A stretch of DNA of 64,000 nt, taken from contig NZ_CP071463.1 in NCBI RefSeq assembly GCF_017352095.1, positions 1,612,001-1,676,000 of the forward strand, read 5' to 3'. Position 1 is the stretch's first letter. Each line of letters begins with the position of its first letter. The translations under genes and the position numbers were made by a program. This DNA is from Natrinema longum (GTDB lineage Archaea; Halobacteriota; Halobacteria; Halobacteriales; Natrialbaceae). Of the stretch, positions 43,011 through 56,192 are shown one piece after another. Below the pieces are notes generated by a model, which was not told the DNA's origin, did no database searches, and worked only from the letters and a program-made list of their open reading frames with translations.

Positions 43011-44309
43011 CTACCCTTCGTCCGCTTTCGCGCCCGCCCTCGAGACGTCGGGGTTTCGCAACAGCGGGAGCGAGACGATCGTCAGGCAACTCAAGACGAG
43101 CGCGGCACAGAGTACGTACGTCAACTGGTAGCCAAACCAGAGGTCGACGGCGGGGATCGCGATCAGCGGTCCGAGACTGAGCCCGACGTCACCCATCACC
43201 TGGTAGACGCCGCCCATCCGTCCGAGTTCGTCGCCAGGGGTGAGATCGCCCATGATCGCGAGCAGCGCCGGTGCGGCCGCGCCCATCCCGCCGCCGACGA
43301 GGACGATCGCTCCGAGCAGCGCCTCGATCGTCGGGACGTAGGCGATGATCAGAAAGCCCGCGCCCATCGCCAGAAACGCGGGCACCGTCAGCAGCGTCCG
43401 ATCGCTGACCATGTCCGACACCCAGCCGGTGACCATGGTCATCGATCCCGACGTGAGCACGCCCAGCCCCATCACGATCCCGCTGACGCCCGCCGCGCCG
43501 AGCGCCGAGAGCTCGAGGCCGGCGTCGCTGGCGTAGCGGGCGAGCGTCGAGAGGATGATCCCGCCCCAGAGGAATCGAAGGGTGAAGTTCCCGTACCCGA
43601 TCAGGACGACGGTCGGGTTGCCGGCGAGCAGCGACGGGACCTCCCGGAGCTTGGCGGCTCGCCCTTCCGCGCCCCCGTGGACGTCCGGCAGGACGAGCGT
43701 CGCGACGGTGCCGGCGATCAACGCGAGCACGCCGGCAGCGAGAAACGCCGTCTGCATGCTGGCGAGATCGGTCAGCACGCCCCCGACGACGAGCCCGGTC
43801 GGGAAGCCCAGCGACTGCCCGCCACGCATGTAGCCGACCCACCGGCCGCGGTTGTCGGCGGTCGTCACGTACGTGATCGTCGCGAACGCCCCGATGAAGA
43901 CGAACGCGCTCCCGACGCCCCAGAACAGCCGCGCCAGAACGAAGACGACCCCCGGCAGCGACACGTCGCCGAGCAACGGTACCGTTCCGAGATCCGTCGG
44001 CGGCGTGTGGAGGCCGACGATGTAGCCAAACGGGGCCAGCGCCTGCGTGAACAGCCCGAAGATCATCGGTTTCCGCGCGCCGACCTGGTCGATGATCGTC
44101 CCGGCCGGCGTGTTCATGAACAGTCGCGCGATCCGGTTGGCCGAGAGGATCACGCTCAGCATGACCGCGCTGATCACGAGTTTCTCGTCGAGCAGCGGCA
44201 GCGTCGGAAAGGCGACGCCCGTCGCCACCCCGCCGAAGAAGACGCCGGCGATGACTGCGAGGGCGATCGTCCTGATCTCGGCCGTCGAATAGGGGGACTG
44301 TTCAGACAT
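43011..44309 (-). CDS. Major facilitator superfamily transporter
   Basis: A 432-residue protein with 12 predicted helices. The first cytoplasmic loop reads ANRIARLFMNTPAGTIIDQVGARKP, the degenerate A-motif of MFS drug-efflux-type carriers. The second half has GWVSDMVSDRTLL at the equivalent place. Substrate unknown. It lies 42 bases downstream of a minus-strand acyl-CoA ligase gene, so it may be cotranscribed with it and move a related acid. Confidence 0.88.
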   Translation of the reverse strand: MSEQSPYSTAEIRTIALAVIAGVFFGGVATGVAFPTLPLLDEKLVISAVMLSVILSANRIARLFMNTPAGTIIDQVGARKPMIFGLFTQALAPFGYIVGLHTPPTDLGTVPLLGDVSLPGVVFVLARLFWGVGSAFVFIGAFATITYVTTADNRGRWVGYMRGGQSLGFPTGLVVGGVLTDLASMQTAFLAAGVLALIAGTVATLVLPDVHGGAEGRAAKLREVPSLLAGNPTVVLIGYGNFTLRFLWGGIILSTLARYASDAGLELSALGAAGVSGIVMGLGVLTSGSMTMVTGWVSDMVSDRTLLTVPAFLAMGAGFLIIAYVPTIEALLGAIVLVGGGMGAAAPALLAIMGDLTPGDELGRMGGVYQVMGDVGLSLGPLIAIPAVDLWFGYQLTYVLCAALVLSCLTIVSLPLLRNPDVSRAGAKADEG

Positions 44310-44351: not shown

Positions 44352-45971
44352 TCACGATTCGGGCCCGTGTTCCTCGAGGAATTCGTCCCGTAACGCCGTC
44401 TTGCGGATCTTTCCGCTCCCCGTCTTCGGGAGGTCGGGACGGATCTCGACGACTCGCGGGTGTTTGTAGGGTGCGAGTTCGTCGAGGACGTACGCCTCGA
44501 CGTCGTCCGCGGTCAGGTCCGCGCCCGCTTTCGGCGTGATCGCGGCGGCGACGGTCTCGCCCCGGCGGTCGTCGGGAAGGCCGAAGACCGCCGCCTCGTG
44601 GATGGCCGAATGCTCGTAGAGCACGTTCTCGATTTCCCGCGGATAGACGTTGTACCCCGCGGTCAGGATCATCTCTTTCTCGCGTCCCTTGATGTAGTAG
44701 TAGTTGTCCGCGTCCCGCGTCCCGATGTCGCCCGTGCGGAACCACCCCTCCGCCGTGAATACCTCGTCGTTCGCTTCGGGGTTCTCGTAGTAGCCCTTCA
44801 TCACCTGTGGTCCCTGAACGAGGATTTCGCCCTCCTCGCCGGGGCCGACCTCGGTCCCGTCCTCGTCGACGATCTTCGAGCGCGTGTGGCCGACGGGTTG
44901 CCCGACGCTGCCGGGCCTGTTTCCGAGCGACGACCACCGGATCGTGTGGGTCGTCGCGGTCGTCTCGGTCAGGCCGTACCCCTCCGAGAGCGGGACGTCG
45001 AAGGCCTCCTCGAATCGCTCCTGGGTCGGTGCCGGGAGCTTGTCGCCACCCTGTCCCGCCCGAACCAGCGTCGACAGGTCGTACTCGTCGGGATCGGAAG
45101 CCTCGAGCAGATCGACGAACATCGCGGCGACGCCGGTAAACGACGGCACGTCGTGCTCGTCGAGCGTGCGGAGGACCCGTTCCGGGTCCCACTGATCCGG
45201 GCGGAGCAGGTGCAGCGTCCGACCGGCACACAGCGACGCCATCATCCCGAGCAGCCCGGTGATGTGGTACATCGGCAGGACGATGAGCCCGTCGCCGTCG
45301 ATCGGGCTCGCGCTGTAACTCGAGACGCCCTGTGCGATCTGGACCCGGAAGTTGCGGTGGGTCAACAGGACGCCCTTGGGCTCGCCCGTGGTCCCCGAGG
45401 TGTAGGGCTGGAGGAGGACATCGTCGTCCTCGCGGTCGGCGATCGCCGCGTTCGTATCGCCGCCGAGTTCCGGCAGTGACGGGTGGTCGCTACCCGGCGT
45501 CGCGCCGACGATCTCCGTCTCGAGGTCCGCGACGGCCTCGACGACGTAGGCGTCGGCTCGCGGGCGATACCCGCTCGCATCTCCCGCGGCGCGTGGCGCC
45601 GCGCCCTCGACCAGCACCGCCTCCGCGTCGGCGTGGTCGAGCTGGTATTCGATCTCGCGACGGCGGTATTCGGGGTTCAGCGGACTCGCGATGACACCGG
45701 CGTGACAGCAGGCCCAGATGGCGGTACAGAAGGGAATGCCGTTCGGCATGTAGACGCCGACCCGGTCGCCGGCCTCGAGGCCGAGTTCTCGAAGCCCGTT
45801 CGCAATCCGTGCAACGCGATCGCCGAACTCGCGGTAGGTGATCGTCTCGCCGGCGTGTTCGATCGCGATCGTATCAGGGAATTTCGTAATCGCTCGGTCG
45901 AGCAAGTTGGCGACGTTCCCGTCGTAGGGCGGCTCGAGGAGCGTCTCCGCAGGGACGATATCGAGCTCCAT
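44352..45971 (-). CDS. Acyl-CoA ligase (AMP-forming)
   Basis: A 539-residue ANL-superfamily ligase: P-loop TSGTTGEPKG at residues 191-200, GYGLTETTATTH, FRTGDIGTRDADNYYYIKGREKE and GYNVYPREIE in the C-terminal hinge, and the catalytic-lysine motif KTGSGKIRK near 520. It is related to the ligases at 4857 and 50285. An N-terminal leader of about 18 residues precedes the first helix. It is followed on the same strand by the MFS gene 42 bases away. Chain specificity is uncertain. Confidence 0.9.
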   Translation of the reverse strand: MELDIVPAETLLEPPYDGNVANLLDRAITKFPDTIAIEHAGETITYREFGDRVARIANGLRELGLEAGDRVGVYMPNGIPFCTAIWACCHAGVIASPLNPEYRRREIEYQLDHADAEAVLVEGAAPRAAGDASGYRPRADAYVVEAVADLETEIVGATPGSDHPSLPELGGDTNAAIADREDDDVLLQPYTSGTTGEPKGVLLTHRNFRVQIAQGVSSYSASPIDGDGLIVLPMYHITGLLGMMASLCAGRTLHLLRPDQWDPERVLRTLDEHDVPSFTGVAAMFVDLLEASDPDEYDLSTLVRAGQGGDKLPAPTQERFEEAFDVPLSEGYGLTETTATTHTIRWSSLGNRPGSVGQPVGHTRSKIVDEDGTEVGPGEEGEILVQGPQVMKGYYENPEANDEVFTAEGWFRTGDIGTRDADNYYYIKGREKEMILTAGYNVYPREIENVLYEHSAIHEAAVFGLPDDRRGETVAAAITPKAGADLTADDVEAYVLDELAPYKHPRVVEIRPDLPKTGSGKIRKTALRDEFLEEHGPES

Positions 45972-46103: not shown

Positions 46104-46877
46104 TTACTCCTCGAGGCGCGGTCGTCCTTTGATCGTGACCGTCTCGCCGACCATGTACGAGGAGGCGGGACTGGCGAGGAACTGCGCGAGGTCGGCGACC
46201 TCCTCGGGGCTGCCGATGGTGCGGTCCGGGGTCGTTCGGGCGATTTCGTCCGCATCGTCGTCGACGCCCATCTGAGTGCGGACGCCCTCGGTCGCGACGA
46301 GGCCGGGCGCGATGCAATTGACCCAGATGTCGTCCTCGGCCCAGTCGGCCGCGACGGAGGTCGTGAAGTTGACGACGCCGGCTTTGGCGGCCCCGTAGTG
46401 ACTCATCGACCGCGAGCCGCGGGTGCCCGCGACGCTGGCGAAGTTGACGATCCGGCCGCCGCCGTGCTCGCGCATGTACTCGCCGGCGATCTGCGAGCAG
46501 TGGAACGTGCCGTGGAGGTTGATGTCGACGATCGTCTTCCAGCCGTTCTCGCTGATCTCGGCCGGCGGGGCCTGGAAGCTCGCCCCCGCGTTGTTGATCA
46601 GCACGTCGAGCGCGCCGAACGCCGCGACGGTCTCGTCGACGAGTCGCTGGACGGCCTCCCGATCCGTCACGTCGCACTCGATCGCGATCGCCTCGCCCGG
46701 CCGATCGCTCTCGTTGATCGCGTCGGCGACCGGCTCGACGTTCTCGAGTTCGCGAGACGTGACGACCACGTTCGCGCCGTCGTCGGCGAAGCGCTCGACG
46801 ATCGTCCTCCCGATGCCACTCGAGGAGCCGGTGACGATCGCAGTCTCCCCGTCGACGCTGAACTGTGCCGTCGTCAT
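46104..46877 (-). CDS. Short-chain dehydrogenase/reductase
   Basis: A 257-residue classical SDR. It has TGSSSGIGRTIVERFADDG for cofactor binding, VTSRELEN after the second strand (Ser-Arg favours NADP), NNAGASF, and the catalytic FASVAGTRGSRSMSHYGAAK. The C-terminus YMVGETVTIKGRPRLEE closes the substrate pocket. It is a candidate 3-hydroxyacyl-CoA or 3-oxoacyl dehydrogenase. It starts at the ATG at 46877, diverging from the MaoC gene, with a family 1 repeat between them, and lies about 130 bases upstream of the ligase gene at 44352-45971 on the same strand. Confidence 0.88.
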   Translation of the reverse strand: MTTAQFSVDGETAIVTGSSSGIGRTIVERFADDGANVVVTSRELENVEPVADAINESDRPGEAIAIECDVTDREAVQRLVDETVAAFGALDVLINNAGASFQAPPAEISENGWKTIVDINLHGTFHCSQIAGEYMREHGGGRIVNFASVAGTRGSRSMSHYGAAKAGVVNFTTSVAADWAEDDIWVNCIAPGLVATEGVRTQMGVDDDADEIARTTPDRTIGSPEEVADLAQFLASPASSYMVGETVTIKGRPRLEE

Positions 46878-47001
46878 CGGTGCGCCTCCGCGACGCGCGT
46901 CCGTTCTACTGACCGTTCGCTCGAGCCGAGTATGATACTCTCTGCCATGAGCGTCTACGGGTTCATCGACCGCCGGTATAAGCGATTCGACCGGTCGGCA
47001 C

Positions 47002-47344: not shown

Positions 47345-48367
47345 ATGCCGAATAAGCCCCTCGAGGAACTCGAGGCGATGGTCGGCGACTCCCGAGTCAC
47401 CGCCAAAGCGTTCCGCATCGAACCCGGCAAGGTCGAGGAGTTCGCGCGAGCGATCACGTCCGACGACCCGGTGTTCCGCGACGAGACGGCAGCGGCCGAG
47501 CGGGGCCACGACCGCGTGCCCGCACCGCTGACCTACACGCAGGTCGCCCGGTTCCCGCGGTACACCCCCGCCGACGTCGACGGCAAGGGCTTCGACCTCG
47601 GCTTCCAGCCGGAGTACGTCCTCCACGGCGAGCAGGCCCACGAGTACGAGCGCCCGATCTACGTCGGCGACGTCCTCGAGGGAACGACCACCCTCGCGGA
47701 CGTCTTCCAGCGCGAGGGCGGCCGCGCGGGGACGATGACCTTCGCCGTCCTCGAGACCGAGTACCGGACGCGAGACGGCGACCTCGTCCTCACCGATCGC
47801 TCGACCGCGATCGAAACGCAGGGTGCGGTCGACGACGGCGATGGGAACGGCGACGGCGAGGCGGGCGAACCGACCGACGACCCCGCGGCCGAGACGAACG
47901 GCGGAGCCGCCCGAACGGAGCCGACAGCGCCGTCGGAGACGACCGCCGAGTTCGAGCGCGTCCACACGGTCGACGACCTCGCGGTCGGCGACGCCGGACC
48001 GACGGTCGTCGTCGAGGACCTCGAGCGCCAACACTTCGTCAAGTACGCTGGTGCCAGCGGCGACTTCAACCCGATCCACTACGACGAGCCCTACGCGACG
48101 GCCGCGGGCAACGAGAGCGTCTTCGGGCAGGGCATGTTCACCGCCGGACTCACCTCGCGGGTCGTCACTGAGTGGTTCGACCTCGCCGACGTCGCGAGTT
48201 TCGGCCTCCGGTTCCAGTCGCGCGTCTTCCCCGGCGACACCGTCGTCGCCACCGGCGAGGTCGTCGAAGTCGATCGCGATTCGGGAACCGTCGAGACGGC
48301 ACTCGAGGCGCGGACGACCGACGGCGAGACGCTGCTGACCGGAACGGCGACGGCCGACCTCGAATAA
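47345..48367 (+). CDS. Double-hotdog MaoC-family enoyl-CoA hydratase
   Basis: A 340-residue protein of two hotdog domains joined by an acidic linker (about residues 160-200). The N-terminal domain (FAS1-like dehydratase) lacks the catalytic pair; the C-terminal domain has GASGDFNPIHYDEPYA with Asp240 and His245, the active-site pair of R-specific hydratases and dehydratases. Such two-domain forms accept bulky or branched enoyl-CoAs. The product would be a 3-hydroxyacyl-CoA. It is convergent with the DUF35 and Ltp-like genes, and overlaps nothing. The short upstream frame that runs into its ATG is not supported as a gene. Confidence 0.85.
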   Translation: MPNKPLEELEAMVGDSRVTAKAFRIEPGKVEEFARAITSDDPVFRDETAAAERGHDRVPAPLTYTQVARFPRYTPADVDGKGFDLGFQPEYVLHGEQAHEYERPIYVGDVLEGTTTLADVFQREGGRAGTMTFAVLETEYRTRDGDLVLTDRSTAIETQGAVDDGDGNGDGEAGEPTDDPAAETNGGAARTEPTAPSETTAEFERVHTVDDLAVGDAGPTVVVEDLERQHFVKYAGASGDFNPIHYDEPYATAAGNESVFGQGMFTAGLTSRVVTEWFDLADVASFGLRFQSRVFPGDTVVATGEVVEVDRDSGTVETALEARTTDGETLLTGTATADLE

Positions 48368-48371
48368 AAAA
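48366..48371 (-). terminator. T-run terminator candidate of the DUF35 gene
   Basis: Six A on the plus strand, that is a run of six T on the minus strand, about 18 bases after the DUF35 stop codon. Poly-T tracts end transcripts in archaea. It overlaps the last base of the MaoC stop codon. Confidence 0.4.
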
Positions 48372-48388
48372 GACGCGCGCCGAACGTG

Positions 48389-48814
48389 TTACTCCGGGAC
48401 GAACACCGGAATCGCTGCTTCCTCGGAGATCTGCCAGAACGTGACGCCGACGGCCGCGCCGATCTCGAGACGCTCGAGATCGGCATCGAGCAGGGCGAGC
48501 AGGCGCGGCCCCTCCGCGAGCTCGATCGCGCCGACGACGTAGGGTGTCCGATCGGCGAACCCCGGCTCGCCGGGCACGTAGCAGACGGTGTACGTGTAGA
48601 TCGTGCCGACGCCTTCGCTCGCCTCGAACGGCGGGTCCTCGGCCCCGCAGGCGGTACAGACCGCTCGCGGGTACAGCTGGCGGTTACCACAGTCACACTC
48701 CTGGTACAGGAGTCTGCCCTCGAGCGTCGCTTCCCAGAACGGGACCGTCGCACCGGTCGGGACGGGAACTGGCCCCTCCCATTCGTCGCGGCAGTCCTCG
48801 ACCTGCCCCGTCAT
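48389..48814 (-). CDS. DUF35 Zn-ribbon/OB-fold acyl-CoA-binding protein
   Basis: A 141-residue partner protein. The rubredoxin-like zinc ribbon uses Cys40, Cys42, Cys53 and Cys56 (ECDCGNRQLYPRAVCTACG); an OB-fold follows (GVGTIYTYTVCY, PYVVGAIELAEGPRLLALL). DUF35 proteins bind thiolase-fold enzymes and shuttle CoA esters; in steroid-degrading bacteria the DUF35 part of ChsH2 is needed by the aldolase Ltp2. Its ATG overlaps the stop of the upstream Ltp-like gene by four bases, so the two products are made together and probably form one complex. Confidence 0.88.
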   Translation of the reverse strand: MTGQVEDCRDEWEGPVPVPTGATVPFWEATLEGRLLYQECDCGNRQLYPRAVCTACGAEDPPFEASEGVGTIYTYTVCYVPGEPGFADRTPYVVGAIELAEGPRLLALLDADLERLEIGAAVGVTFWQISEEAAIPVFVPE

Positions 48815-49959
48815 GATTCCCTCCGGAGGACGACCGTGCTACTCGAAGAGAGTAGGCCGCCGGTACCGTGGGCGACGGCGACCTCGGCGTCGTCGACCTG
48901 CCGGTCGCCCGTGTACTCGCCCCGGAGCTGGCGGACGGCCTCGACGAGGACGAACACGCCGAAGTGACCGGGGTGACAGTACGAGAGGCCGCCGCCCTGC
49001 GTGTTCATCGGTAACTCGCCGCCGGGAGCGGTGGTGCCGCCTTCGACGAACGCGCCGCCCGCGCCCTTCTCGCAGAAACCGAGATCCTCGAGGGTGACCA
49101 GCGCGGTGTACGTAAAGGAGTCGTATATCTCGGCGACGTCGACGTCGTCGTGGGTAATCCCCGCTTGCTCGAAGGCGTTCGGTCCCGTGACCGCCGCGCC
49201 GGTGGTCGTCATGTCGGGCATCTCGCTTACGTCCTGACGGTGGGTGCTCGTCGACGCGACGCCAGCGACGGCGATCTCCGGCACGTCGAGTTCGCGGGCC
49301 CGCTCCTCGCTCACGAGCACGACCGCGCCGCCGCCGTCCGAGACGAGACAACAGTCCAGCAGGTCGAACGGCTCGGCGATCCGTCGGGACTCGAGAACGT
49401 CGTCGACCGTAATCGGCTCTCGATGGGCCGCCTTGGGGTTCATCGACGCCCACTCCCGAGTCGAGACGGCGATCTCGGCGAGCTGTTCCTCGGTCGTCCC
49501 GTACTCGTGCATGTGTCGCCGCGCGGCCATCGCGTAGGCTCCGGGCGGCCTGAAGAGGCCCGTCGGCCGGACGAAGCCGTCGATCGGGTGGGTCTCCTCG
49601 AGCGATTGCTCCCTGTCGGGGCCCGTCTTGCGCGTCGAGCCGTAGGCGACGACCACGACGTCGGCCTCGCCGCGGGCCATCGCGTCGCCGACGTGGCCAC
49701 AGAAGTGCTCGAACGACGAGCCGCCGATCTCGGTCCCCTCGAGAAACGAGGGTTCGTCGAGGTCGAGGTACTCCGCGAGTACCAGCGCCGGCATGTAGTC
49801 GTCGCCGCCGGCGACCGCGACGCCGTCGACCTCGTCGAGAGTACAGCCGGCGTCCTCGAGCGCGCGAACGGTCGCGATCGCCGCGTTATCGAGCCAGTTC
49901 CGGTCGGGCGTTTCGCCGAGTTCGCTTTCGGCGACGCCCGCGACGATCGGTTCAGTCAC
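48811..49959 (-). CDS. Thiolase-fold Ltp2-like protein (putative side-chain aldolase or non-classical thiolase)
   Basis: A 382-residue thiolase-superfamily protein. Where classical thiolases have the nucleophilic Cys, this one has GGSSFEHFCGHVGDA (residues 79-93), with His85 at the aligned place and a Cys two residues later, so ordinary thiolysis is doubtful. The C-terminal half has AEIYDSFTY (Tyr279), LEDLGFCEKG and QGGGLSYCHPGHFG (Tyr327, His329), blocks I associate with the Ltp family, whose member Ltp2 performs retro-aldol cleavage of a beta-hydroxy branched CoA ester with a DUF35 partner. Translation starts at GTG 49959, preceded by a GGAGGG ribosome-binding site. The DUF35 gene follows with a four-base overlap. 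Confidence 0.78.
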   Translation of the reverse strand: MTEPIVAGVAESELGETPDRNWLDNAAIATVRALEDAGCTLDEVDGVAVAGGDDYMPALVLAEYLDLDEPSFLEGTEIGGSSFEHFCGHVGDAMARGEADVVVVAYGSTRKTGPDREQSLEETHPIDGFVRPTGLFRPPGAYAMAARRHMHEYGTTEEQLAEIAVSTREWASMNPKAAHREPITVDDVLESRRIAEPFDLLDCCLVSDGGGAVVLVSEERARELDVPEIAVAGVASTSTHRQDVSEMPDMTTTGAAVTGPNAFEQAGITHDDVDVAEIYDSFTYTALVTLEDLGFCEKGAGGAFVEGGTTAPGGELPMNTQGGGLSYCHPGHFGVFVLVEAVRQLRGEYTGDRQVDDAEVAVAHGTGGLLSSSSTVVLRRES

Positions 49960-50284
49960 AGGCGTCCCTCCGCCTCTCGGATCGTGCCATGGTCTCCCGA
50001 TATCCCGACCGACCGCAAATAAGTTGTGGTAGGTTATGTCACAGCATTCGTCTCGCGGCCGGCCGCGCCGGCCGCTACTGAATCGAGGCCGGTACCCGCG
50101 CCTCGGGTACACTGCTGAGCCATACGCGTGTCCCGTACATCGGAGACGGACACGTGGGGAGACGAAGTCGAGAACCCGCTTCGAGCTTGGACGACGAATC
50201 GGTACTGACCGACTGAACTGCGGATTCCGACGCCCTCTCCCCGTCAGGGGTACTATTTTATATTACTGCGTGATATCATGGCGC
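49960..50284. other. 325-base intergenic region with a perfect GC palindrome
   Basis: No gene is supported here. At 50055-50075 GCGGCCGGC pairs exactly with GCCGGCCGC around a three-base loop, a strong hairpin if transcribed. The right end holds the promoter of the ligase gene, the left end the ribosome-binding site of the Ltp-like gene. Confidence 0.45.
50253..50264 (+). promoter_or_regulatory. TATA box of the ligase gene
   Basis: The string ctattttatatt lies about 27 bases before the ATG at 50285, the clearest TATA-like box in the window; the transcript is probably leaderless. Confidence 0.6.
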
Positions 50285-51859
50285 ATGGATTTGGCAAGCG
50301 TTAGCGAAAGTGCGAGAGAAGGAAACGTCGCGCGACTGCACGACGAGACGGCGCGCCACCACGGCGACGCACGGGCGATCGAGTACCACGGAGAGACGCT
50401 GACCCACGACGAACTCCAGACCGAGAGTTCGCGGTTCGCCGGCGGCCTGGCCGACCTCGGGATCGAACCCGGCGACGTACTGCTCCAGTACCTGCCGAAC
50501 TGTCCGCCGTACCTGATCGGCGCGCTCGGGGCCTTCAAAGCGGGCGTGATCGTCTCGCCGGTCAATCCCCAGTACCGCAAGCGGGAGCTGACCTACCAGC
50601 TCGAGGACACCCAGGCGACCGTCGTGTTGACACACGAGGCCCTCGAACCGTTCCTCGAGGAGGCACTCGCCGAGATCGACTGGGACCCGGTCGTCATCTC
50701 GGTCGGGACGGATGCCGACGATTTCCACGCCTTCGCCGACGTCCGGGACGAGGAGACGTTCGTCGAGCGGGCCGACGACGACGTGGCGCTGTTACCCTAC
50801 ACCTCGGGAACGACTGGCAAGCCCAAGGGAGTCGAGCTCACCCACCGCAACTTCCGCGCCCAGACGTTCGCCATCCTCTCCCAGGACCACGCCCTCGAGG
50901 ACGAGGCCGTCCGCAGCCTCGTCTGGCTGCCGCTGTACCACATCACCGGCTTCACCCACACCGCCTGGCAGCCGCTCGTCCGCGGCGGGAGCGTCTACCT
51001 GCGGAGTGCGGCCAACTGGGACGCCGACGCGGCGATGGAACTGATCGACGAGGAGGGGATCACCCACTACGTCGGCGTCACCGCCATGTACGTCGACATG
51101 ATCAACAGCGAGGACTTCGACGAGTACGATCTCACCAGCCTCGAGTCGGCTGGCGAGGGCGGCGCGAAGATGTCCGTCGCCGTCCAGGAGGAGTTCGAGG
51201 AGGTCGCCGGCGTCGAAATGGCCGAGGGATACGGGTTGACGGAGACGAACGGCGCGACCCACTCCCAGCGTGGCTCGACGTTCGGCCTGCGCCACGGCAC
51301 GATCGGCCAGCCGACTCGGATGACCGAAGCCAAGATCGTCGACTCGAGCGGCGAGACGGTCGGTATCGGCGAGGAGGGCGAACTCCTCGTCCGCGGTCCG
51401 CAGGTGATGAAGGGCTACCACGGGATGCCCGAGGCGACCGAGCGGGCCTTTACCGAAGAGGGCTGGTTCCGCACGGGCGACATCGCCCGGCGGGACGAGG
51501 ACAACTACTACGAGATCGTCGACCGGAAGAAGCACATGATCAACTCCGCCGGCTACAACATCTACCCCAGCGAACTCGAGGAACTCCTCGCCGAGCACGA
51601 GGCGGTCGCCGAGGGCGCGGTGGTGGGTATCCCCGACGAGCGCCGCAACGAGGTTCCGAAGGCCTACGTCGTCACCAAGCCGGGGGTCGAACCCGGCGTC
51701 GACGTCACGAGCGAGGAGATCAAAGACTTCTTCCTCGACAACGTCGCCTCCTACAAGCACCCCCGCGAGGTCGAGTTCATCGACGAACTCCCGCGGACGA
51801 CGTCGGGGAAGATCCAGAAGTACAAGCTCGAGGAACGCGAGGAGTCGGGGGACGAGTAG
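50285..51859 (+). CDS. Acyl-CoA ligase (AMP-forming)
   Basis: A 524-residue ligase: P-loop YTSGTTGKPKG near residue 172, GYGLTETNGATHSQ, FRTGDIARRDEDNYYEIVDRKKHM and INSAGYNIYPSELEE in the hinge region, and RTTSGKIQKYK near 512. Start placed at the ATG at 50285 on the basis of the TATA box; the longer open frame to 50036 is GC-rich non-coding sequence. Three bases separate its stop from the GTG of the hydroxyacid dehydrogenase, so the two are translated from one message. Confidence 0.9.
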   Translation: MDLASVSESAREGNVARLHDETARHHGDARAIEYHGETLTHDELQTESSRFAGGLADLGIEPGDVLLQYLPNCPPYLIGALGAFKAGVIVSPVNPQYRKRELTYQLEDTQATVVLTHEALEPFLEEALAEIDWDPVVISVGTDADDFHAFADVRDEETFVERADDDVALLPYTSGTTGKPKGVELTHRNFRAQTFAILSQDHALEDEAVRSLVWLPLYHITGFTHTAWQPLVRGGSVYLRSAANWDADAAMELIDEEGITHYVGVTAMYVDMINSEDFDEYDLTSLESAGEGGAKMSVAVQEEFEEVAGVEMAEGYGLTETNGATHSQRGSTFGLRHGTIGQPTRMTEAKIVDSSGETVGIGEEGELLVRGPQVMKGYHGMPEATERAFTEEGWFRTGDIARRDEDNYYEIVDRKKHMINSAGYNIYPSELEELLAEHEAVAEGAVVGIPDERRNEVPKAYVVTKPGVEPGVDVTSEEIKDFFLDNVASYKHPREVEFIDELPRTTSGKIQKYKLEEREESGDE

Positions 51860-52880: not shown

Positions 52881-53870
52881 ATGTCAGACCTTCGCATTGA
52901 CGCGATGGTACCGGGATTGGCAGGCGACGCCGGTGGAGCCGCCGAGCGTGCCGAGGAGTTCGGCTTCGACGGGGTCTGGACGCCCGAGACGGACAACGAC
53001 GCGTTCCTCCCGCACCCGCTCATTGCCGACCGAACCGAGGAGATCCAGCAGGGAACGCGGATCGCGCTCGCCTTTACTCGCAGTCCGATGGCGCTCGCCT
53101 ACACCGCCTGGGATCTCGCGCGACAGTCCGACGGCCGGTTCGTGCTCGGCCTCGGCACGCAGGTCAAAGGCCACAACGAGCGCCGGTTCAGCGTCGACTG
53201 GGAGTCGCCGGGGCCGCGGCTGCGCGAGGTCGTCGAGTCGCTCCGGCACATCTTCGCCGTCTTTCAGGGGGAGGCCGAACTCGACTACGAGGGCGACCAC
53301 TACTCGTTCTCGCTCATGACCGAGACGTTCGATCCCGGCCCGATCGACCACCCCGAGATCCCGATCTACATCGCGGGCGTCAACGAGTACAACATCCGGC
53401 TCGCGGGAGAGCTCTGTGACGGGTTGGCGATGCATCCGTTCAACACGCCCAGCTACACCGACGACGTCGTCGCTCCGACCGTCGCCGAGGGCACCGACCG
53501 AGCGGACCGCTCGCTCGAGGACGTCGCCCTCTCCGCGAGCCCGTTCGTCGTAACGGGGGAAACCGACGAAGAGCGCGAGCGGTCCCGGGAGGAAGTGCGC
53601 CGGCGCATCGCCTTCTACGGCAGTACTCGTACCTACCACGACGTCCTCGAGCATCACGGCTGGCGGGACGTCGGCGAGGAGCTACACGACCTCTCGAAGG
53701 ACCAACGATGGGAGGAGATGGCCGAACTGGTCACGGACGAGATGGTGGCGACGTTCGCGATCGAAGCACGGCCCGACGAACTGCTCGCGGCGGCCCGGGA
53801 AAGCTACGGCGGCATCGCGGACCGGGTCGTCCTCCCGCTGGATCACGGCGACGCCTTCCTGACCGAGTAG
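52881..53870 (+). CDS. LLM-class F420-dependent oxidoreductase
   Basis: A 329-residue luciferase-like monooxygenase-fold protein. The N-terminal EFGFDGVWTPETDNDAFLPH, RFVLGLGTQVKGHNERRFSV and IPIYIAGVNEYNIRLAGELCDG segments are those of the F420-binding branch found in actinobacteria and haloarchaea. It likely oxidises or reduces an alcohol, aldehyde or enoyl bond using coenzyme F420. Its reaction is unknown. The last 28 bases overlap the convergent metallo-hydrolase gene. Confidence 0.82.
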   Translation: MSDLRIDAMVPGLAGDAGGAAERAEEFGFDGVWTPETDNDAFLPHPLIADRTEEIQQGTRIALAFTRSPMALAYTAWDLARQSDGRFVLGLGTQVKGHNERRFSVDWESPGPRLREVVESLRHIFAVFQGEAELDYEGDHYSFSLMTETFDPGPIDHPEIPIYIAGVNEYNIRLAGELCDGLAMHPFNTPSYTDDVVAPTVAEGTDRADRSLEDVALSASPFVVTGETDEERERSREEVRRRIAFYGSTRTYHDVLEHHGWRDVGEELHDLSKDQRWEEMAELVTDEMVATFAIEARPDELLAAARESYGGIADRVVLPLDHGDAFLTE

Positions 53871-54850: not shown

Positions 54851-56047
54851 TCAGATGAGTTCCCGGGCGATCGTCCGTTTCTGGATCTCGTCGGTCCCCT
54901 CGAAGATGCGGAACACGCGGGCCGCGCGATAGTTGCGCTCGATGGGCAGGTCCTTCATGAAGCCGGCACCGCCGTGGACCTGCATCGCGACGTCGGCCGC
55001 GTCGTTGGCGAGCTTCGCGCCGCGGAGCTTCGCCATCGACTCCTCCTTGCGGGCTCGCTCGCCTTCGTCCATCTTCCAGGCGGCGTAGCGGTAGAGCTGT
55101 CGGACCTGCTCGATGTCCGTCGCGAGTTCGGCCAGCTGGAAGGAGACCCCCTGCCGGTGGCCGATGGGTTTCCCGAACGTCTCCCGGTCGCGGGCGTACT
55201 CCACCGACAGGTCGAGCAGGAACTGGGCCGTCCCCACCGCGCCGGCGGCGATGTTGATCCGGCCGCCGCCGATCCAGCTCATCGCGGCCTGGAACCCCTG
55301 GTCGACCTCGCCGAGCACCTGATCCTCGCCGACGCGGCAGTCGTCGAAGTGGAGTTCCGCGTGCGTTCCGGGGGTCATTCCCATCGCCCGGTGGATCTTG
55401 CCGACCTCGAACCCGGGGGTGTCGTCGTCGACGAGGAAACACGTAATCCCCTCGAGGTCGCCGTCCTCGCCGCTCGTCCGGGCGAAAACCATCGCGAAGT
55501 CGGCGTAGGGGCCGTTCGTGATGTAGACCTTCTGCCCGTTGATCACCCACTCGTCGCCGTCCTTCTCCGCACGGGTGTCCATGTGGTGGGCGTCGCTGCC
55601 GTGGCCCGGCTCCGTCAGCGCGAAGCAGGTCGTGATCTCGCCGTCCATCAGCGGCTCGAGGTACTCCTCGCGTTGGCGCTCGTCACAGGAGAGCAGGATG
55701 GGCGTCGGGCCGCCGGCACCGCCGAAGATCGCACTGTGGAATCCCGGCGGCCGGTTGGACATGTGCTCGCCCACGATGGCCCGCGTGAGGATGTCGACGT
55801 CGCCGCCGCCGACCTCCTCGGGCATCGTCATGCCGTAGAAACCGGCCTCGACCGACTTCTCGCGGATCTTCTCGACGATGTTTCGGTACTCGGGGACCTG
55901 TCGGTGCTCGTCGTCGACGATGTGTTTCTCGTAATCCGCACCGAGGAACTGCTCGTACTCGTTCTCGAGGGGGGCGACTTCCTGCTCGATGAAATCGTCC
56001 AGCGCCTTCGAGATCTGCACGGCTTCGGACGGTTCGCTGAAGTCCAT
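54851..56047 (-). CDS. Acyl-CoA dehydrogenase
   Basis: A 398-residue flavoprotein: TCFALTEPGHGSDAHHMDTRAE, GQKVYITNGPYADF, FGKPIGHRQGVSFQLAELAT and the catalytic IFEGTDEIQ with Glu near residue 383. Start at the ATG at 56047 (MDFSEPSEAVQ); the extra eight residues upstream are unlikely. It diverges from the IclR regulator gene, which shares its promoter region, and is followed closely by the metallo-hydrolase gene. That arrangement suggests this pair is the direct target of the regulator. Confidence 0.9.
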   Translation of the reverse strand: MDFSEPSEAVQISKALDDFIEQEVAPLENEYEQFLGADYEKHIVDDEHRQVPEYRNIVEKIREKSVEAGFYGMTMPEEVGGGDVDILTRAIVGEHMSNRPPGFHSAIFGGAGGPTPILLSCDERQREEYLEPLMDGEITTCFALTEPGHGSDAHHMDTRAEKDGDEWVINGQKVYITNGPYADFAMVFARTSGEDGDLEGITCFLVDDDTPGFEVGKIHRAMGMTPGTHAELHFDDCRVGEDQVLGEVDQGFQAAMSWIGGGRINIAAGAVGTAQFLLDLSVEYARDRETFGKPIGHRQGVSFQLAELATDIEQVRQLYRYAAWKMDEGERARKEESMAKLRGAKLANDAADVAMQVHGGAGFMKDLPIERNYRAARVFRIFEGTDEIQKRTIARELI

Positions 56048-56192
56048 AATCGGTCTTACATGACGGCCCACTTAAGCGTTACCGTGTGACAGGTTTTCAA
56101 TCGGCGAATGAACGGCCAGTCGCCCGATACCGGAGGCAGGAGCGACGGAAACGGTCGGGCGCGATTCGGATCGGTTTTTTCGAGGACTGTCG

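Follow-up and report, generated by a model that had tools for sequence, protein, structure and literature searches.

A thiolase-fold protein of Natrinema longum with a DUF35 partner and a Tyr/His residue pair is a candidate retro-aldolase

We analyzed a 64,000-nucleotide stretch of the genome of the haloarchaeon Natrinema longum (contig NZ_CP071463.1, forward-strand positions 1,612,001 to 1,676,000; hereafter the window, numbered from its first letter), in which a gene for a thiolase-fold protein, here called THL, is followed by a gene for a DUF35 protein and lies near a MaoC hydratase gene. The records nearest to the window are from N. ejinorense (97%) and N. versiforme (90%). The three genes on which the argument turns are as follows.

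48811-49959, minus strand: THL, thiolase-fold protein of 382 amino acids (aa); GTG start after GGAGG; Gly80, Tyr279 (in YDSF), Ser281 and His329 (in HPG)
48389-48814, minus strand: DUF35 protein, zinc ribbon and OB fold; its start lies inside the THL stop
47345-48367, plus strand: MaoC hydratase, double-hotdog, FAS1_DH_region plus MaoC; convergent with the DUF35 gene

A four-base overlap (ATGA) joins the THL stop codon to the DUF35 start codon, as a preliminary description of this DNA had stated. The same description placed the three genes side by side, and all three are indeed real and adjacent, but MaoC faces the DUF35 gene from the opposite strand, with 21 bp between its end and the DUF35 stop codon, and therefore stands outside the DUF35/THL transcription unit. 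Pfam assigns Thiolase_C_1 to THL, zf-ChsH2 and OB_ChsH2_C to the DUF35 protein, and FAS1_DH_region and MaoC_dehydratas to MaoC. THL also matches the NCBIfam model NF004811 (PRK06158) with 459.4 bits against a curated cut-off of 421, although the name of that model, 'acetyl-CoA acetyltransferase', is a label with no tested function behind it.

The active-site residues of THL were matched by aligning the protein with 80 relatives and with the thiolases of the same genome. The column of the thiolase nucleophile Cys is occupied by Gly80, which corresponds to Gly89 of Sal, and Gly is found there in all 79 relatives that are readable at this point. A His had been reported at the nucleophile position, but the column holds Gly as it does in Sal and Ltp2, whereas His85 lies five residues past it and is variable among the relatives (V, A, F, S, Y and others), and a His nucleophile was rejected on this account. 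The motif that reads HDCF/NEAF in SCP2/Cys thiolases is YDSF in THL, and its Tyr279, kept in 80 of 80 relatives from many phyla, aligns with Tyr294 of Ltp2 and Tyr302 of Sal, which mutagenesis has identified as the catalytic bases of those enzymes (PMC12329534). The catalytic acid is Tyr344 in Ltp2 and Cys304 in Sal; the C304S variant of CtSal is inactive, and the authors attribute the inability of CtSal to catalyse thiolysis to the Gly that replaces its nucleophile Cys (PMC12329534). In THL, Ser281 stands in the column of Ltp2 His296 and Sal Cys304 (S in 50, A in 27 and C in 3 of the 80 relatives), and His329, the His of the thiolase GHP motif, stands in that of Ltp2 Tyr344 and Sal Gln352 and is kept in 79 of 80. 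Paralogs of the Tyr-Tyr type have Tyr at the Tyr344 column and P, S, N or A at the His296 column. THL therefore has a pattern of its own, with half of the aldolase apparatus and the thiolase His. The Ltp-type Tyr residues noted earlier are thus present in part: the base is there, but the Tyr344 position is His329.

Judged by its residues, THL cannot be a Cys-thiolase. One could still suppose thiolase activity, biosynthetic or degradative, perhaps of the type of haloarchaeal PhaA/BktB, which needs no Cys. In favour of this, THL passes the NF004811 cut-off, retains the GHP His and has a two-subunit layout with an OB-fold partner like that of BktB and PhaA (PMC7137286). We consider this improbable, because Gly80 is neither Cys nor Ser, because Tyr replaces the His of HDCF/HDMF, and because the candidate thiolases of the same genome, which have Cys (loci L003 and L004) or Ser (L002) at the nucleophile column, fall on a separate branch with a support of 100/100. 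A ketothiolase of the PhaA/BktB type was dropped, its catalytic residues being wrong.

The AlphaFold2 model of THL, computed from 48 sequences, has a mean predicted local distance difference test (pLDDT) score of 92. Foldseek ranked 4u4e first, Sal (9myr) and Ltp2 (6ok1) next, and then true thiolases, BbsB, TbSLP and PhlC, and by sequence the closest solved relatives are 4u4e (E 7e-116), Ltp2 (6ok1, 2e-49) and Sal (9myr, 3e-49). In a maximum-likelihood tree of 97 sequences, for which only the 80 closest relatives were sampled and which has some long branches, an 80-row Tyr-His clade (support 99/98) includes neither Ltp2 and Sal nor the Cys thiolases. Because THL lacks defining residues and the tree position of the Ltp2 and Sal families, it is placed outside both, although it would act in a similar way, and the earlier Ltp2-type assignment fails on the missing second Tyr and His296 and on the separate clade.

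The Tyr-His clade is mostly bacterial (Actinomycetota, Chloroflexota, Pseudomonadota and Bacillota), which does not support an archaeal origin of the protein. THL of the window and that of N. ejinorense group with Sphaerobacter 4u4e (support 91/89), and a second haloarchaeal group (L035, L042, L044, L048 and L070) is placed elsewhere among bacteria (100/99), which points to at least two entries from bacteria into haloarchaea; haloarchaeal THL was probably acquired from bacteria. The Streptomyces neighbourhood is the AfsK/KbpA region and gives no hint of the substrate. Separately, Tyr-Tyr (Ltp-like) and Tyr-His genes occur together in single clusters of Williamsia, Nocardioides and Rhodococcus (L021, L023 and L026), and at least one set of this type in actinobacteria adjoins genes for benzoate-type ring-hydroxylating dioxygenase and meta-cleavage enzymes and HsaD/HpaH/HpaI-like genes; a side-chain aldolase in aromatic catabolism is possible there.

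The DUF35 protein carries a zinc ribbon with four Cys (C40-x-C42-x10-C53-x2-C56) followed by an OB fold, and its closest counterparts in the PDB are DUF35 domains, those of Shy (9myr_B), of the archaeal AACT/HMGS complex (6esq) and of ChsH2 (6ok1_B). It is free-standing, with no fusion to MaoC, and a DUF35 gene is the immediate neighbour of the THL relative in about 66 of 80 loci, the N. longum genome itself excluded. Another DUF35-like arrangement is seen at L003 (G000:C1:315587-319447), where a Cys-type thiolase gene is followed by a 475-aa open reading frame (ORF) whose N-terminal part resembles sequences of the HMG-CoA-synthase type and whose C-terminal part includes, by eye, a DUF35-like zinc ribbon, a natural fusion.

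MaoC has the Asp/His dyad (GDxNPxH) of MaoC (R)-hydratases in its C-terminal domain (D240 and H245, invariant in alignment A3), and its N-terminal half, which reads SDDPVF, lacks the dyad His; the structure model is poor (pLDDT 43), and the score with a fused-HadAB model is 129 bits against a cut-off of 350. A MaoC ortholog is found in 29 of 29 Natrinema genomes and in 61 of 125 genomes of the family, and a THL ortholog of at least 60% identity in 16 and 27 of these, respectively. By coordinates, MaoC adjoins THL-DUF35 in 25 of the 27 family genomes with a THL ortholog. A sample of 394 genomes of the class contains THL in 22, MaoC in 54, both in 21 and MaoC without THL in 33, a co-occurrence with a Fisher p of about 3e-19 that is inflated by shared ancestry. 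From these counts, THL is nearly always accompanied by MaoC, and MaoC often occurs without THL beside other acyl-CoA genes. The view of MaoC as a dedicated or strict partner of THL was consequently rejected, since all 29 Natrinema genomes have MaoC and only 16 have THL, and the adjoining MaoC is less specific evidence than had been held. We read MaoC as a resident gene that may cooperate with THL-DUF35.

A further possibility, proposed earlier, is that THL is strictly of the Ltp2 or Sal type and forms a hydratase-aldolase pair with MaoC that acts on sterol-like side chains. The DUF35 partner, the base Tyr, the absent nucleophile and the adjacency of MaoC would all suit such a pair. Nevertheless, the second catalytic residues differ, the clade is separate, the DUF35 protein is not fused to MaoC as in ChsH2 and Shy, and no steroid-degradation gene was noticed nearby, in a genome that was not systematically searched for such genes, and we hold this reading to be very improbable. 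A literature search on haloarchaeal steroid degradation returned nothing specific, and no finding favours sterols in particular.

The surrounding genes include the ligase, SDR and acyl-CoA dehydrogenase genes that had been described.

43011-44309, minus strand: MFS transporter, module member
44352-45971, minus strand: LIG1, AMP-forming acyl-CoA ligase, module member
46104-46880, minus strand: SDR oxidoreductase, module member; missing from some genomes with THL
50285-51859, plus strand: LIG2, AMP-forming acyl-CoA ligase, divergent from THL; stays beside THL in Natrinema and in genus g9
54851-56053, minus strand: acyl-CoA dehydrogenase (ACAD); genome G043 likewise has an ortholog (L155) next to its 67%-identical THL

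The window also encodes an F420-dependent LLM oxidoreductase of the TIGR03617 type (52881-53870; 388 bits against a cut-off of 278) whose gene and the module keep their synteny within Natrinema. Synteny of the block MFS-LIG1-SDR-MaoC-DUF35-THL extends to several further genera of Natrialbaceae, and no other protein of the module is as constrained as THL, so that the gene set is not a product of chance. Most genomes without THL also lack MFS, LIG1 and SDR. Exceptions run in both directions, with LIG1 but no intact THL at L134, L127 and L158 and THL but no LIG1 or SDR at L144 and L148, and the links within the module are therefore not strict. In genome G047, THL-DUF35 is located away from MaoC, and in G043 the 67%-identical pair, beside ACAD and other acyl-CoA genes, has no close MaoC ortholog. 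Of the 80 loci, 29 have a hydratase gene (MaoC or crotonase) no more than 10 kb away and 13 have one for an aldehyde dehydrogenase, frequencies that are descriptive only.

Between genera, THL proteins are 86-90% identical with only 55-66% identity at fourfold sites, which resemble those of the module neighbours, whereas the proteins of these neighbours are mostly 67-84% identical. THL is under strong purifying selection, and where the gene is intact this constraint speaks against decay and against a non-catalytic role. THL is nonetheless broken in three Natrinema, by an in-frame TGA in G005 and by splitting in G022 and G026 (N. versiforme; L006 10001-11139), is reduced to a remnant in G006, and is absent by clean deletion in G019; MaoC is intact in these genomes. 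Such losses, together with family names such as 'lipid-transfer protein', could be taken to indicate a non-catalytic CoA- or lipid-binding protein. However, the active-site residues are invariant across phyla, and with the selection just described they leave this explanation scarcely credible.

Upstream of THL lie two further features.

50016-50030, minus strand: TATA/BRE-like element (ACCACAACTTATTTG; TATA-like part 50016-50023), shared by 17 loci from five genera
49952-49990, minus strand: 12-codon leader ORF, ATG at 49990 and TGA inside the THL start; position and length conserved in 17 haloarchaeal loci

About 26 nucleotides, a spacing kept without insertions or deletions, separate the element from the leader ATG, and the peptide sequence of the leader is not conserved among the 17 loci. 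To judge from this arrangement, the leader resembles a leaderless mini-ORF whose translation would be coupled to that of THL through termination-reinitiation. The conserved element and leader thus give THL-DUF35 a promoter-like region of its own, separate from MaoC.

Aldolase chemistry is supported by the absent nucleophile, by the retained base Tyr of Ltp2 and Sal, by the dedicated DUF35 protein, and by a fold and sequence that, among characterised enzymes, are nearest to the known DUF35-bound retro-aldolases. We favour, with modest confidence, the view that THL and the DUF35 protein form a two-subunit C-C lyase of the thiolase fold, which employs a Tyr/His pair for the retro-aldol cleavage of a 3-hydroxyacyl-CoA and can probably cleave molecules that resist ordinary fat breakdown. 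We infer the following chemical steps, with His329 as the acid, MaoC as the hydratase and the SDR as the handler of the carbonyl. The ligases, ACAD and a hydratase (MaoC here) would provide the 3-hydroxyacyl-CoA, and the DUF35 protein would pack on the THL dimer and shape the acyl pocket. The backbone of Gly80, at the position of the thiolase Cys, would hold the beta-hydroxyl while Tyr279 removes its proton; cleavage of the C2-C3 bond would release a ketone or aldehyde and the CoA enolate, which His329 would protonate. The SDR may then process the carbonyl product. A route for branched chains is put forward as an open hypothesis.

Several points weigh against retro-aldol cleavage by THL. Both known aldolases have a second catalytic residue that THL lacks, Tyr344 of Ltp2 being replaced by His329 and Cys304 of Sal by Ser281, and the equivalences rest on sequence alignment rather than on coordinates of the predicted model. 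A DUF35 partner is no proof of aldolase chemistry, since true thiolases, BbsAB, PhlABC and the haloarchaeal beta-ketothiolases also use DUF35, and MaoC is on its own strand and more widely distributed than THL. Moreover, no measured activity for any member of the Tyr-His clade was found in the literature located. A different nucleophile-free enzyme acting on acyl-CoA C-C bonds, such as a decarboxylase, a retro-Claisen hydrolase or a catalyst of synthetic aldol condensation, would be consistent with His329, which suits enolate chemistry generally, and with the ligase and SDR neighbours, which are compatible with synthesis too; the Cys-less thiolase-fold relative TbSLP acts on malonyl-CoA, albeit very slowly (PMC12329534). 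We judge this unlikely, though worth keeping in mind, given that the invariant base Tyr is an aldolase signature, that CtSal has no malonyl-CoA decarboxylase activity (PMC12329534), and that the ACAD, hydratase and ligase neighbours indicate catabolism.

As a broader and distinctly more tentative proposal than retro-aldol cleavage by THL itself, the clade may constitute a third class, defined by its catalytic pair, of thiolase-fold aldolases that depend on DUF35 (Tyr/His, as opposed to Tyr/Tyr in Ltp2 and Tyr/Cys in Sal), present in the four bacterial phyla named above and taken up on at least two occasions by haloarchaea, in which it would work with resident acyl-CoA genes to shorten the side chains of acids that classical beta-oxidation cannot finish. 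The proteins of one large clade, named 'acetyl-CoA acetyltransferase', have the aldolase base but no thiolase nucleophile. Should they be aldolases, many automatic annotations would be in error, and both bacteria and haloarchaea would possess an overlooked and widespread means of cleaving blocked acyl chains. Being intermediate between the active sites of thiolases and Ltp2, the Tyr/His pairing would also offer a direct test of how thiolases evolved into aldolases.

Among known systems, fused HadA/HadB and the ChsH1-ChsH2 type hydratases share with MaoC the two hotdog halves and the Asp/His dyad in the C-terminal half, but MaoC scores far below the HadAB cut-off and contains no DUF35 domain, and its gene occupies the opposite strand. 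The haloarchaeal beta-ketothiolases PhaA and BktB likewise comprise thiolase-fold and OB-fold subunits from two genes, yet their catalytic residues are Ser-His-His (PMC7137286) rather than the Gly-Tyr-His of THL. The paralog at L002 (G000:C1:568884-573005), which has the HDMF and GHP motifs and a Ser in the nucleophile column, fits the Ser-His-His pattern, and the small ORF that follows it may encode an OB-fold subunit. The 'thiolase' 4u4e from Sphaerobacter thermophilus, known from its structure only and NF004811/PRK06158-like, belongs to the clade of THL, is 50% identical in the Foldseek alignment, and has the same Gly, YDSF and HPG pattern, but it is a bacterial and uncharacterised protein, and a literature search by its structure code found no paper. 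Ltp2-ChsH2(DUF35) of Thermomonospora curvata (6ok1) has the thiolase fold, the DUF35 partner and the base Tyr (in YDHF) and lacks the nucleophile Cys, as THL does; it differs in its clade, in its general acid (Tyr344) and oxyanion-hole residue (His296), and in the fusion of the ChsH2 DUF35 to a MaoC domain, where the window has separate genes on opposite strands. Sal-Shy(DUF35) of Comamonas testosteroni (9myr) shares the Gly at the nucleophile position, the base Tyr and the YD-x-(F/Y) motif with THL and differs in its clade and at Cys304 and Gln352, and the DUF35 domain of Shy has a Cys3His1 zinc finger and is fused to MaoC, whereas that of the window has four Cys and stands free.

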